Source: a virus
Virus record (IMG/VR): IMGVR_UViG_3300009079_000021
Span: 1 to 64,000 of that record
DNA: 64,000 bases
Direction: 5' to 3' (one strand)
Each line of letters opens with the position of its first letter. Position 1 is the stretch's first letter. Positions 1,808 to 12,531 of this stretch are shown here, piece by piece. Below the pieces are notes generated by a model. The model saw only the letters and a program-made list of their open reading frames with translations, was not told where the DNA came from and ran no database searches. The position numbers were made by a program, and so were the translations under genes.

Positions 1808-2197
1808 CTAACTGTCCAATACCTCAGGAAACTTCCAGAATCTGTTGTAGTATTTCTTCCGATGCTTCATCCACCCTACATTACCCACATTCGTATGTGG
1901 TCCATCATTGTAATTAGCACCTCTTATCTCACCTTTGATATTATAATTGGCACCTCTGATAACATTGTAATTATCTGGTCTTTTTACCCAGTTATTACAT
2001 TTTTCTTTAAGTTTCTCTAAACTCTCAGAATCTACAATTCCTATGAATTTCTTATTATATCTCAGAGTTAATCGATTCCATACACTTTTCACCAATTCCT
2101 CTGAATGATATGGCATGACTACTTCTTGGTAGAATCCTTGTTTCTTCGGCACCCACACATATAAGTCATTATCTAATACTTTAACAATGTAGTACAC
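1808..2197 (-). CDS. Hypothetical protein with IRGANYN repeats
   Basis: A 129-residue protein starting at GTG; the consensus promoter at 2246-2274 gives a leader of about 40 bases. The N-terminus (MYYIVKVLDNDLYVWVPKK) looks like a small beta domain. Residues 79-98 carry two copies of a short motif, IRGANYN, joined by a short linker, and the C-terminus is basic and aromatic (KHRKKYYNRFW). I do not recognise the family. It is the first gene downstream of the DnaA-box-like array, so a role linked to replication or to regulation by that array is conceivable but unsupported. Confidence 0.65.
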   Translation of the reverse strand: MYYIVKVLDNDLYVWVPKKQGFYQEVVMPYHSEELVKSVWNRLTLRYNKKFIGIVDSESLEKLKEKCNNWVKRPDNYNVIRGANYNIKGEIRGANYNDGPHTNVGNVGWMKHRKKYYNRFWKFPEVLDS

Positions 2198-2312: not shown

Positions 2313-2489
2313 TTTTCCACAGTTTTTGAGATTCCTGTGGAAAACCTCGGAAACCATCAGAAATACTGATATGTGCCAGTTATTGCAGTGTCTGTGGAAA
2401 CTTGACAGATGTGTGCTGACGTGCTAAGCCAACAGTTCCTCAGAGGTTTTCCACAGATATTACAAAGTTTTCCACAGGATTGTGGAAAA
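2313..2489. other. oriC-like cluster of cyanobacterial DnaA boxes
   Basis: Six nine-base boxes lie in 177 bp of non-coding DNA. Five are exact TTTTCCACA: 2313-2321 (+), 2336-2344 (-), 2447-2455 (+), 2468-2476 (+) and 2481-2489 (-). A sixth at 2393-2401 (-) is GTTTCCACA. Four exact boxes extend to GTTTTCCACAG, and two share GAGGTTTTCCACAG. TTTTCCACA fits the relaxed DnaA consensus TTWTNCACA and is the form known from cyanobacterial chromosome origins. The cluster lies between two minus-strand genes and next to an AT-rich stretch (2490-2545). A replication origin used with host DnaA, a DnaA titration site, or a regulatory region are all possible. Confidence 0.75.
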
Positions 2490-2545
2490 ACAAAGTATAT
2501 TTAATTTGATATTAAAACAAATTAACAAAACCTTAACATTTTTAG
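2490..2545. other. AT-rich stretch next to the DnaA boxes, possible unwinding element
   Basis: About 80 percent A+T with runs such as TATATTTAATTTGATATTAA, directly abutting the last DnaA-like box and ending just before the stop codon of the 2547-2726 gene. In bacterial origins an AT-rich unwinding element sits beside the DnaA boxes; the match here is positional only. Confidence 0.5.
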
Positions 2546-5588: not shown

Positions 5589-6104
5589 TCAGTTTCCGCG
5601 TGTGAGATCAACCTTACATGTGATACGGTCTTTACCACCATTCCATACGGTGTATATCTCCATGTTATCTTGCTTGGCAAGATACTGGACCGCACGGAGC
5701 AATGACTCAAGATCATCACCCAGTGCTCCCATACCCGTATTGCACTTCTTACATAACCATCCACGAAACTCTTGAGTATCATGATCATGGTCACATTGCC
5801 ATCCCCACGTACCATCCACACCATCAGGTACAACTTTTTTGTTCTTATATACTGGTTTGGTGCATATTGCACATGGTTCTCCATATGCAGGGCGTGGATG
5901 ACTCTTTAGCGTTTTTTTAATAGCAGTAAGTTCCTTAGATTTAAGAGAACTACAACTATCACAAATTGTGTTACTGCGAAGACGATAACCATCTTTTGTG
6001 AATCTAGTTCCATAAAAAGAATATTCAATGTTTGATTTACGTATACCACATGATGAACATACACATGTTCCTAGTGGAATGTTGTCAAGGTTTTTAGTTT
6101 TCAT
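5589..6104 (-). CDS. Endonuclease VII-like HNH nuclease
   Basis: A 171-residue protein with an N-terminal zinc-binding segment (CSSC at residues 16-19, CDSC at 48-51) and a C-terminal endonuclease VII-type domain: CAIC (78-81), CDHDHD (104-109), GWLCKKCNTGMGALGD (115-130). The arrangement CxxC, DHDH, LCxxCNxxxG is typical of the recombination endonuclease VII / HNH superfamily (T4 gp49), whose members cleave branched DNA or act as homing-type nucleases. Zinc ligands and the catalytic histidine are present. It overlaps the upstream gene by an ATGA junction. Whether it resolves packaging junctions or is a selfish nuclease cannot be told from the sequence. Confidence 0.85.
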   Translation of the reverse strand: MKTKNLDNIPLGTCVCSSCGIRKSNIEYSFYGTRFTKDGYRLRSNTICDSCSSLKSKELTAIKKTLKSHPRPAYGEPCAICTKPVYKNKKVVPDGVDGTWGWQCDHDHDTQEFRGWLCKKCNTGMGALGDDLESLLRAVQYLAKQDNMEIYTVWNGGKDRITCKVDLTRGN

Positions 6105-8178: not shown

Positions 8179-11100
8179 ATGGCATTAAAACTATTTAATA
8201 GGATTGGTCTGAGGCGTGACTTTAACCTAAGTGACTTGATCAATCCAGATTCTGCACTTAATAACATACTAAGAACCGATAGTATGTCTGCAGGTGATTC
8301 ATTTACAATTGAAGATATTGCACCAATCAAAAACATTTATGTAACAGATATTACTGCTGCGACATTCTTAACCCTTGATGACATTATAGTCAAATTCACA
8401 CAAATTCTTGTTGACCCTGAAACAGGTCTTTCTAGTTTAGATAACAATGATAATCCGGTTGCATTTAGACCATTTGTTAAAATTAAAAATAGATTAGACA
8501 CAGCATATTTCACTACAGGAGAACCATTCTTCTTTGGTGGTGATGGTCCTGTTGCGACATATTTTGATGCTGATGATATTATTAGACAACCAAATGATTT
8601 AATATTATCACCAGCACAAGATAGTTCATATCAAATTGGTGATATTGTACTGTCAAATAATAATATTTACAGAGTAATTGTACCCAATTCATCAACTAGT
8701 TCAGTATTAGTACACACAAGTGGGTCTCAAGATGGATTCTTATTTGAACGTGCATATGATGCTAAGGAAGTATATTACAATGGTAGATATGATGTAATTA
8801 CAGGTGAAGAACTAACCGAGAGTGATAATTTCTGGGAACGTGGGTTCTTTTTGTATGGAGATAAAATTAGAGATTCATATCTCTCCTCTCTTGGTGGTGT
8901 GAAATGGAATGGTTATTTCAAACCTATTGTATCAGGTTCACATAGATTTTTCATTAGATCTAGTGGAAATTGTCAATTCAAATTCCAAGACCCCAGTGTA
9001 TTCTCTTCAGTAGAAACAAAGTATGCACAACCAGACACAGCATATGTACAGAGTCAAATTGCAAGTAGTTCAGGTATTACACAGATATGGCGGGGATCAT
9101 TATATAATATCTTAACTGATAATACAAGAAAGTTTGTAGAAGTTAGGTTGGAAACTGGTTTAGTACTCTCTACTGATGATATTGTATACGTTGACTCATT
9201 ACAAGGTCAATTAATTCCTAAGCAATATAGAATTTCCACACTATTCTCATCAGGTGAAGAAAATATTGTTGATAGAATTTGGATTGAAGTAACAGAAGAT
9301 TTCAATCGTAAAAATGTATCTCTCAATCAATTGCCTGTATTTGGTACTCAGGTTTGGGCAGATGCAGAAGGCAATAGATCATATATTAGATATTATCCAT
9401 ACAAGAGAAGAGCATTAAAGACATATCTCAATTCAATCTACAAGAATCTTGAGATACCTTCCACTAACTTTACTACTACAACTAATACAGTCACATTTAC
9501 TGGTATTAATGCTGATCTATATTATTATCAATTTATGGAGAATGATTACATCTACGATTATAGATTACGTGGTAGTGATGCAAATCAAGGTGTAAGACGT
9601 TTTGTTGTTACTGGATTGAGTGATAGTAGTAAAACAGTAACTTTTTCTTTAGATACTTCATATACTGGTATCGACAGTAGTGATAATAATGATCAGCAAG
9701 CAAGAACTGATGGCACAGATTTATATGTATTTGCAGAGGATTACGGTGAATTTCCACCATTTGGAGCATTAATAACAGGAACATATACAACAGGTGCTCT
9801 CAATGATATTATTTCTGGAACAACAAGAACTAATAATTTACATTTTGTTGCTAGATTTGGAACTGAAGGGGAAGACATAAGAAAGAAATACATCACTATT
9901 GATCAATTTATACCAAAGTATGAAGAATCTGCATTTGAATTAACTTTCTTTATGAAAGATGAAGATATTAATTACCCTAATAGAATTGAAGAGAAAGGTC
10001 TTGTTATATGGTATGCAGATGAGAATTCAGGTTATAATCCAATAAATTATAAGTATCTCTATGATCCAGATTATGAATTTTATCAAATTGGTGACTTTAG
10101 AACATTTTTAGATAATACTATTCCTCTTGGTGGTACGAGTAGAGAGACAGGCATTGACCAAAGAACATTTGGTCAACCACAATTACTTACCTCAGGTGAC
10201 CAATATAAAACATTTTATAGTACATTACCTGTCAATTCAGTATATGTACCAAAGGTAAGGTGGAATGATATTTCAGTCGTACAAAATTGTAATATAACTC
10301 TCGGAAGTAGAAAATTAACTATCAGTGACACTGTTAATACTGAAGTAGGTAATTACGTATTTCCTGCTGATATTACAGGCATTAAGAGTGAAACTATATT
10401 GTCAAGAGGAACAAGAGTAACAGAAATATTATCAAACCTTGTTGGTACTGGTGATGCTATCATTAGTAAAATTTCACTACAATCCGCATCTGATGCGTCA
10501 TTTGTATACTTTAATCACCGTGGATTTGTAACTGCATTACATTTAAGACCTAAACATACGAATGGCAATGATATCTACTGTAAAGCAGGTATGCCTATTG
10601 GGTCATGTACATTCACTAATACTAATTCGATTGCAATTAGGTTGATAACTGAAAATAATATTGATGAAGGTACTACCATAAACTTTGTTAACTCTGGACA
10701 GTCAGGGACTAGTCAAAGCAATGGAGTTAGGATTACATATTCTAGTAGTGGCAATACTACTACATTTACTGGCGAAGGTATAGGTCAAATATTTACCTAT
10801 GAAACTTATGCTGATGGAATGGATTCAGTAACGCCAGGTATGGTATTTGTATCCAATAGAGATCCTGCAAATCAAGTATATTATGTACGTGTTAATGGTT
10901 ATAATGATCCAAACAATGATGGAGTTGGTCTTATATTCCTTAACAGATCATTAGAAGATATGACATCTGGTGATAGAATTAGTGCCATTTATTATGATAA
11001 AGGTATTGATATTGTTAAACCATTAGAGTCATATTGTAATGGTATTGCATGTAATCAAAATGCCTATAAAACTGAAATAGTAACTAATGCTGACAATGAG

Positions 11101-12531
11101 TCATCAATTGTATCATTTACTGATACTAAGTATATTGCACCACTCATCTACACTTCAAATCAAACATCATTTGAGAATACTCATAATGCTCAGAGTGGTT
11201 CTACAAATGTTTTAATTGGTGCGACAACGGAGCAGGCATGGTACTGGTTTGATAACTTATCAGGTAGGAATGAAGATTATGAACCAATAGATGGTTCTAT
11301 TGCATCACATTATATAGATGACGTTGTTCATGTATCACTAAGATCTACTGATACTTTAAATTCAGCAATGTCAGAAAAAGGATTTCCTAATACTGCAACT
11401 TTAACTGGTTCTAATGATTATATTCCAATTGGAAGAATTGTTGGTTACATTAAAATAAGAAGAAATAGTAACTATCAATACAATTATATTATTAAACTGA
11501 ACCCTAAGGCATATGTGTGGGATGATGTAGTTAATAATGATGATGGCAATCCTCAAAGTAAACAAATTGATTGGACTAAGTTCAATACATCTGATTACTG
11601 GGTCCAACGTTGGTCCTATAAAAATAGATCCAATCGCATCAGTAAAGGTGCTAACATTACTAATAAAACTACTTTAGGTAATACAGCAGGATCTACTGGA
11701 AGTGATCAATATTACAAAGTGACTTCTTCAATTTCTATATCAAGTGCTGAAGCGATTTCATGGTTCCACAATCCTAATAGTATTCCTATTAATATTGGAT
11801 CTACTAACAGAGTATTACCTAGTGATTCTTATGTGCGTAGGACAGAAATTAGTGGTACAACCAAACTAATTTACTTTAACGAGTTTAGTGAGTTCCAAGG
11901 TGCATATAGTGTATATGGTAAGCATTACACTGGCACAACTGACAATGGATTGACAGTTACTAATAATATTACTAACTCTGATCTAAGAATTCATCCAATT
12001 ATTAATATGCAGAACCAGGACTTTAGTCCTGCTAAGAGAACCAGTACAAATTCTGCTGATGATCCCTTTGACTTTATACAATTTAGAAGTAAAGTTTATG
12101 AAGTAGTATTAGGTAACTCACAAACTGAATCCTTTATACCATTTGTAAGATTTGTTCATCCATTTGCTACCACTAGTGGTGTAGAGACCAGAATTCAAAA
12201 TAGCATGAATCCATTGACTGTCTATACATTTACTAATACCACAACAAATAGAGAACTATGCTGCCCTCCTCTTGATACTTCACCACCATTTGATAGTTCT
12301 GCTATTGGTCTATCTACTACTATCAATGAACCAGATATGGGTATTGCTGGTGGATTAAATGTTAGAGTTATTTCTGCAAGACATCCAGTTGCAGACATTT
12401 TAGAAATCCCTGCAGGCGTAACCACATCTGATCTTGATGTTGACAAGAAACTGAGAATTGATTTTAGTGGATCAAAGTATGATCTACTTATTGGAGATAG
12501 TATTCCTCAAGATGTCATTGATGGCAACTAG
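8179..12531 (+). CDS. Large virion structural protein with PA14-like module
   Basis: A 1450-residue protein, the only plus-strand gene in the left half. The N-terminus (MALKLFNRIGLRRDFNLSDL, then ALNNIL) matches the start seen in a family of giant T4-like cyanophage structural proteins. Residues about 239-262 (GGVKWNGYFKPIVSGSHRFF) look like the core strand pair of a PA14 carbohydrate-binding domain. The remainder is beta-rich, Asn/Thr/Ser-rich and without cysteine clusters, typical of tail fibres. Preceded by a late promoter, it is probably expressed late and displayed on the particle. Its stop overlaps the stop of the convergent gene. Confidence 0.85.
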   Translation: MALKLFNRIGLRRDFNLSDLINPDSALNNILRTDSMSAGDSFTIEDIAPIKNIYVTDITAATFLTLDDIIVKFTQILVDPETGLSSLDNNDNPVAFRPFVKIKNRLDTAYFTTGEPFFFGGDGPVATYFDADDIIRQPNDLILSPAQDSSYQIGDIVLSNNNIYRVIVPNSSTSSVLVHTSGSQDGFLFERAYDAKEVYYNGRYDVITGEELTESDNFWERGFFLYGDKIRDSYLSSLGGVKWNGYFKPIVSGSHRFFIRSSGNCQFKFQDPSVFSSVETKYAQPDTAYVQSQIASSSGITQIWRGSLYNILTDNTRKFVEVRLETGLVLSTDDIVYVDSLQGQLIPKQYRISTLFSSGEENIVDRIWIEVTEDFNRKNVSLNQLPVFGTQVWADAEGNRSYIRYYPYKRRALKTYLNSIYKNLEIPSTNFTTTTNTVTFTGINADLYYYQFMENDYIYDYRLRGSDANQGVRRFVVTGLSDSSKTVTFSLDTSYTGIDSSDNNDQQARTDGTDLYVFAEDYGEFPPFGALITGTYTTGALNDIISGTTRTNNLHFVARFGTEGEDIRKKYITIDQFIPKYEESAFELTFFMKDEDINYPNRIEEKGLVIWYADENSGYNPINYKYLYDPDYEFYQIGDFRTFLDNTIPLGGTSRETGIDQRTFGQPQLLTSGDQYKTFYSTLPVNSVYVPKVRWNDISVVQNCNITLGSRKLTISDTVNTEVGNYVFPADITGIKSETILSRGTRVTEILSNLVGTGDAIISKISLQSASDASFVYFNHRGFVTALHLRPKHTNGNDIYCKAGMPIGSCTFTNTNSIAIRLITENNIDEGTTINFVNSGQSGTSQSNGVRITYSSSGNTTTFTGEGIGQIFTYETYADGMDSVTPGMVFVSNRDPANQVYYVRVNGYNDPNNDGVGLIFLNRSLEDMTSGDRISAIYYDKGIDIVKPLESYCNGIACNQNAYKTEIVTNADNESSIVSFTDTKYIAPLIYTSNQTSFENTHNAQSGSTNVLIGATTEQAWYWFDNLSGRNEDYEPIDGSIASHYIDDVVHVSLRSTDTLNSAMSEKGFPNTATLTGSNDYIPIGRIVGYIKIRRNSNYQYNYIIKLNPKAYVWDDVVNNDDGNPQSKQIDWTKFNTSDYWVQRWSYKNRSNRISKGANITNKTTLGNTAGSTGSDQYYKVTSSISISSAEAISWFHNPNSIPINIGSTNRVLPSDSYVRRTEISGTTKLIYFNEFSEFQGAYSVYGKHYTGTTDNGLTVTNNITNSDLRIHPIINMQNQDFSPAKRTSTNSADDPFDFIQFRSKVYEVVLGNSQTESFIPFVRFVHPFATTSGVETRIQNSMNPLTVYTFTNTTTNRELCCPPLDTSPPFDSSAIGLSTTINEPDMGIAGGLNVRVISARHPVADILEIPAGVTTSDLDVDKKLRIDFSGSKYDLLIGDSIPQDVIDGN

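Follow-up and report, generated by a model that had tools for sequence, protein, structure and literature searches.

A conserved array of cyanobacterial DnaA boxes in T4-like cyanophages, a candidate part of a replication-initiation element

Introduction

T4-like cyanophages are abundant viruses of marine cyanobacteria, and, aside from a single theta origin predicted for Syn9 at a position that is not given (review, PMC2984593), we found no experimental account of how the copying of their DNA starts. Would a lytic phage of this kind make use of the initiator protein of its host? The question is raised by a locus in the window, as we call the whole 64,000-nucleotide stretch of viral DNA analysed here, where an earlier note, made from the sequence alone, had described an origin-like array of DnaA boxes that could be a DnaA-dependent phage origin, a decoy for host DnaA or a DnaA-regulated promoter region. 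The note had identified the nonamer with the form used by cyanobacteria, and rightly so: TTTTCCACA exactly matches the consensus of the species-specific DnaA box of cyanobacteria, of which the DnaA domain IV of Cyanothece binds paired copies and not single ones (PMC4674748). In the open-access literature searched we came across no DnaA-box array described for T4-like cyanophages; origins with DnaA boxes are known, as are those of T4, and part of the finding may have been noticed before.

Results and Discussion

The array is held by a non-coding region of 349 bp (2198-2546) that lies between two minus-strand ORFs (1808-2197 and 2547-2753) and contains the whole element. Five exact copies of TTTTCCACA fall within 177 bp of this gap, at the positions previously claimed, together with one near match. 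Box 1 (GTTTTCCACAG; 2313-2321, plus strand) and the inverted box 2 (2336-2344, minus strand) are 23 bp apart from start to start; the near match GTTTCCACA occupies 2393-2401 on the minus strand and box 3 is at 2447-2455 on the plus strand, while box 4 (2468-2476, plus strand) and box 5 (2481-2489, minus strand) form an inverted pair with a spacing of 13 bp. The longer flank said to be shared by four boxes was also recovered, GTTTTCCACAG being present at four of the five exact copies. A count over the whole record revealed no scatter: all five copies are in the one array, with none elsewhere in the window or in the whole 68.9-kb record. The number expected by chance in the window is 1.4, and the maximum per 200 bp is five, against zero to two in 1000 dinucleotide shuffles. 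For the looser consensus TTWTNCACA the whole window shows no enrichment (11 found, 11.5 expected), and the signal is thus the clustering of the cyanobacterial form of the box, not an abundance of the looser one.

Directly after the boxes comes the AT-rich stretch of about 55 bp that the note had described, a possible unwinding element at 2490-2544 with 85% AT, which places it in the top 0.13% of the 55-mers of the window; it carries CAAATTAAATATACTT on the minus strand, and AAATATACTT shows a 16-fold enrichment near the arrays described below. On the other side, 40 bp from box 1 as claimed, a perfect sigma-70-type promoter, TTGACA-17-TATAAT (2274-2246, minus strand), reads away from the array and toward gp25, with a small ORF downstream (1808-2197, minus strand) that has no PHROG match. 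Parts of the non-coding region align at the syntenic place in a relative, L121, which keeps box 1, an identical near-match box, the AT-rich stretch and, at the place of the promoter, TTGACA-17-TAGAAT, and which is without box 3. A degenerate DnaA box, TTATACACA (2247-2255), overlaps the -10 element of the perfect promoter and is not conserved in L121. Further along the minus strand, a second near-perfect promoter, TTGACA-17-TATATT (1789-1761), stands upstream of the ORF 1502-1732, and the small ORFs adjoining the array include one for an endonuclease VII-like protein (5589-6104).

The phage of the window is a divergent T4-like cyanophage. Its gp32 shares about 55% identity with those of S-WAM1, P-TIM40 and S-CREM1. 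The window also encodes a gp59-like loader and PhoH, as well as T4-type structural proteins that include a tail tube cap and a wedge protein of the gp53 type. A search for distant DNA similarity between the locus and named phages gave no match because the phage is too divergent, and its relatives were found by means of its 1450-aa structural protein and of DNA patterns. The plus-strand ORF for this protein (8179-12531) stands next to a block that encodes very large structural proteins on the minus strand; it matched no PHROG and no named phage, and has relatives in four viral contigs only. None of the 22 phage records checked encodes a DnaA C-terminal domain, which rules out a phage-encoded DnaA in these records.

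To place the array in other phages, a blind scan of 2.9 million viral contigs was made with the inverted pair GTTTTCCACAG-N5..30-TGTGGAAAA. It returned at least 120 loci, and the matches listed form 101 clusters at 85% identity. The array lies upstream of gp25/gp6, on the strand of that gene and at a distance of 1.8-9.1 kb, in all 69 listed loci that hold gp25/gp6, and downstream of the UvsW-like helicase gene in all 12 listed loci that hold it. The window's own record stops before gp25 would be reached. A relative of the window, G021, has an array of similar layout at 10475-10662, upstream of a minus-strand gp25 (563-817). Since the loci share ancestry, they cannot be counted as separate events; what matters is that the array is retained while the surrounding sequence diverges.

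Thirteen of 20 named cyanomyoviruses have a cluster of two or more exact boxes at the syntenic place: S-PM2, P-TIM68, S-SM1, S-ShM2, S-SSM5, Syn1, P-SSM7, Syn9, Syn19, S-RIM50, S-SM2, S-CAM1 and S-RIM8. The clusters are 1.6-7.6 kb upstream of gp25 in the 12 isolates where that gene was located, the synteny of S-RIM8 rests on a match to S-RIM50 at the locus, and several isolates have two clustered boxes only. The search for the array at the same locus in related cyanophages, which the note had called for, thus finds it kept at one syntenic place in many. The remaining seven (P-SSM2, P-SSM4, P-HM1, P-RSM4, S-RSM4, S-SSM7 and S-TIM5) have no box cluster, although the stretch of S-TIM5 that was examined does contain two boxes at a distance of 208 bp; T4 and P-SSP7, from outside the group, have none either. 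A split by host genus was rejected, given that P-SSM7 and P-TIM68 have boxes and S-RSM4 and S-SSM7 do not.

The same motifs also occur in other settings. Pairs or arrays of TTTTCCACA were seen in GC-rich viral contigs without T4 marker matches (L042, L022, L026, L027, L044, L050, L056, L062, L066), among them seven boxes in L042 (6064-6179) and an inverted pair of 27 bp that is common to L026, L027, L044, L050 and L056, so that phage groups besides the T4-like cyanophages may use host DnaA. In cellular genomes, the inverted box pair was met in a 33-bp form in many Acidobacteria, in Clostridia and elsewhere (L137-L255), with no cyanobacteria among the loci listed. The reversed control motif, GACACCTTTTG-N9-AAAAGGTGT, gave 92 matches, which we do not take as chance background: those listed (L370-L449, from other phages) share one length of 29 bp, and the motif is therefore a different conserved palindromic site.

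The anatomy of the arrays was described for 67 T4-like representatives among the matches listed, with 258 boxes in total. They have two to seven boxes each, with the consensus AGTTTTCCACAG. Boxes on the same strand are spaced by 11-12 and 21-22 bp and inverted boxes by 13-14, 23-25 and 34 bp; of the plus-minus spacings, 23-25 bp is the commonest and 13-14 bp comes second. Box spacing hence follows the helix turn. The boxes also avoid genes, 44 of the 258 being inside same-strand ORFs of at least 50 aa, against an ORF coverage of 66%. The AT-rich neighbour is another matter: strong in the window, it is not general as measured outside the outermost boxes of the 67 arrays, where the AT content is not raised overall. 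The tRNAs annotated over the boxes in S-PM2 do not explain the cluster, because ARAGORN does not find them there.

A second conserved motif accompanies the boxes. In the window it is TTGACA-N17-TAAGCC at 2402-2430 on the plus strand, reading toward the boxes at 2447-2489 and the AT-rich stretch; on the minus strand it appears as CTTAGCACGT-N11-TGTCAA (2428-2402). Most of these phages have CTTAGCACGY-N11-TGTCAA, or a close variant, beside the boxes on the gp25 strand. Its CTTA and TGTCAA are separated by 17 bp, which on the opposite strand gives TTGACA-N17-TAAG, a promoter-like sequence of invariant spacing with a non-canonical -10 (TAAGNN). Between the last box and this motif there are 58.5 bp in the median, and the gap is somewhat AT-rich, at 68% AT versus 61%. 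When viral contigs were probed independently with the motif, it found at least 119 stretches, 55 of them listed with T4-like synteny, and at least two boxes lie within 260 bp in 44 of the 53 listed syntenic matches with a complete flank. As the box probe and the second-motif probe each find the locus, the two converge on one place.

With regard to what this motif does, it faces away from the surrounding genes, all of which are on the plus strand in the annotated stretches of S-RIM50, Syn9, Syn19 and S-SM2, and reads into the AT-rich stretch and the boxes. Copies in an unrelated viral contig, L516, stand 22-31 bp before minus-strand ORFs, a placement that supports a promoter role for the motif, as judged from position. 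In that contig, between positions 1263 and 9200, TTGACA-N17-TAAGAT occurs 12 times in exact form and CTTAGCACG 16 times; the copies precede small ORFs of the minus strand and make up a repeated promoter family. The motif is also kept without the box cluster in P-SSM4, S-RSM4, P-HM1 and P-RSM4, the last with one decayed box at the homologous place; the DnaA part can therefore be lost, and the boxes are dispensable for some members of the group. In an AT-rich clade (L005, L024, L052, L064, L079, L080, L103 and L115) an extended -10 that points leftward, TATAACACGA, lies in the middle of the array with a dyad around it, and the CTTAGC motif belongs to this dyad. The arms of this dyad vary between phages and stay complementary (AGCGAG/CTCGCT, ACCGAG/CTCGGT, CCGTGC/GCACGG, GAGCGT/ACGCTC), as would be expected if a hairpin or cruciform were of importance.

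Boxes, AT-rich stretch, TTGACA-N17-TAAG and an opposed early promoter are thus brought together in one gap between the UvsW-like helicase gene and gp25, and the conservation of the array suggests that the phages recruit host DnaA to this place, in order to start DNA copying or to control genes there. The best reading of the locus, in our opinion, is a host-DnaA-assisted replication origin combined with early promoters, and we regard it as rather probable that T4-like cyanophages have a composite element for the initiation of replication, in which the array is the part bound by host DnaA. At an early stage of infection, this protein would bind the boxes cooperatively and help to open the AT-rich DNA for the first rounds, possibly aided by the transcript and the supercoiling that the flanking promoters produce. 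Once open, the DNA would be taken over by the phage's own T4-type replication proteins, among them its helicase and the gp59-like helicase loader and gp32 encoded in the window, and recombination-dependent replication would follow later. From the architecture, conservation and position of the element and the absence of a phage DnaA, all directly observed, we infer DnaA binding, opening, priming and origin use at this site.

The DnaA-dependent phage origin put forward in the note is accordingly favoured by the clustering, the syntenic conservation and the lack of a phage DnaA, and it is weakened by the cyanomyoviruses without boxes, several of which keep the second motif, and by an AT content that is not generally raised outside the boxes, and gets no help from the GC skew. 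The cumulative skew, which the note had wanted followed around 2.3-2.5 kb, shows no minimum at the array, either in total or at fourfold sites, and nearby extremes, where present, are maxima. Nearly all genes are on one strand, so that gene strand and codon use dominate the skew; as an origin marker it is uninformative or the wrong way round. A wider version of the proposal, in which most marine T4-like cyanophages start at one syntenic host-DnaA origin, a hybrid of oriC and T4 types whose DnaA part some lineages have lost, is offered more tentatively.

The main rival is an early promoter under DnaA control, with the boxes as operators through which host DnaA, by its level or ATP state, switches the early promoters without any replication start there; early transcription of the phage would then be tied to the cell cycle or the light state of the host. 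It is a serious alternative because strong promoters are enriched at the arrays and some contain a box. Near the arrays, the density of sigma-70 promoters scoring at least 10/12 is about doubled, and on the gp25 strand it is raised about fourfold over the 500 bp that follow an array; most of the strong promoters beside the arrays read toward gp25. The T4-type late motif ATAAATAG is enriched 28-fold near the arrays, six phages (L036, L064, L080, L103, L107 and L115) have a box inside the -35/-10 spacer of a TTGACA/TATAAT promoter, and the window itself has its perfect promoter close to box 1. Nevertheless, the regulated promoter suggested in the note meets the difficulty that only 9 of 125 nearby promoters contain a box; besides, a perfect-consensus promoter hardly needs an activator, and regulation of coding genes does not explain a second motif that, in the regions examined, faces away from the annotated ones. 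We consider operator function without an origin unlikely, albeit worth keeping in view, and both functions could be true of the same array.

Loci of the datA type titrate DnaA in bacteria, and the many genome copies of a phage could likewise act as a decoy that withdraws DnaA and stops host replication. Compact non-coding arrays with as many as eight boxes, in phages whose 22 records checked encode no DnaA, would suit such a sink. Titration needs no fixed genome position, helical phasing or association with promoters and a second motif, however, and several isolates would offer just their two clustered boxes, which makes the decoy improbable.

Equally hard to credit is a 9-mer that merely resembles a DnaA box and is read by another host or phage protein. 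This idea draws on position 5, nearly fixed in these arrays though free in the general DnaA consensus, and on the absence of clusters from several phages of Prochlorococcus, P-SSM2 and P-HM1 among them. Against it stand the exact match to the cyanobacterial consensus (PMC4674748) and the one-mismatch variants near the 67 arrays, among which the classical DnaA box, TTATCCACA, shows the highest enrichment (19.7-fold). Variants with T>G at position 1, as in the near match of the window, are enriched 11-fold, changes at position 8 number zero against 4.6 expected, and position 4 is strict, its changes being absent or rare. This pattern fits DnaA as the reader, which would leave a small place for another protein.

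Chance, or a structural artefact of inverted repeats forming hairpins or terminators, can be set aside: the terminator-like stem called at 2489-2468 and the unusually good folding of the single strand (z -5.6) arise because inverted boxes pair, and both readings are contradicted by the shuffles, by position and spacing conserved across divergent phages, by the presence of direct as well as inverted repeats and by the lack of any Rfam match that would mark a structured RNA at the array.

Taken as a host-DnaA-assisted origin with early promoters, the conserved element of a few hundred base pairs gives an exact place to look in the cultured phages S-PM2, Syn9, Syn19 and S-RIM50; in S-PM2 this place is at 19.2-19.4 kb and in Syn9 at 52.5-53 kb. 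Use of host DnaA would tie the replication of the phage to the host initiator, and the lineages without boxes would then be a natural experiment on this dependence. If the single syntenic DnaA origin holds, the first replication round would depend on a host initiator that is controlled by light or by the cell cycle.

Comparison with known replication origins

The closest counterpart in sequence is the cyanobacterial oriC, where dnaN-linked arrays of the same 9-mer, TTTTCCACA, are found in Cyanothece 51142, S. elongatus PCC 7942 and Anabaena PCC 7120. The phage array shares with it several boxes in a non-coding gap and a close spacing of the kind that lets the DnaA domain IV of Cyanothece bind paired boxes. 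Unlike oriC, it belongs to a lytic phage, adjoins small ORFs and the gp25/gp6 baseplate block instead of dnaN, carries CTTAGCACGY-N11-TGTCAA beside the boxes and shows no skew minimum. DnaA boxes are also part of plasmid and temperate-phage origins such as those of pSC101 and P1 oriR. The cyanophage locus resembles these as a foreign replicon with host DnaA boxes, and differs in belonging to a lytic T4-like phage, in which we noticed, in passing, no plasmid-type Rep protein.

The T4 origins offer the other half of the comparison. The iterons of oriE, an origin associated with RepEB, are evenly spaced 12-nt repeats, whereas the cyanophage 9-mers have a DnaA sequence and occur in both orientations at 11-25 bp, not as even direct 12-mers. 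Like oriE, which combines its iterons with an early promoter (PMC3016281), the cyanophage locus joins a repeat array to an early promoter. At oriF and oriG, a promoter is coupled to an AT-rich unwinding element, and the transcript stays in place as an R-loop that primes synthesis (PMC3016281). The cyanophage element has in common with these two a T4-type genome and a promoter-like motif that reads into AT-rich DNA, and departs from them by its non-canonical -10 (TAAGNN) and by the DnaA boxes. Judged by these comparisons, the locus has the look of a T4-type origin that has gained a bacterial DnaA module.
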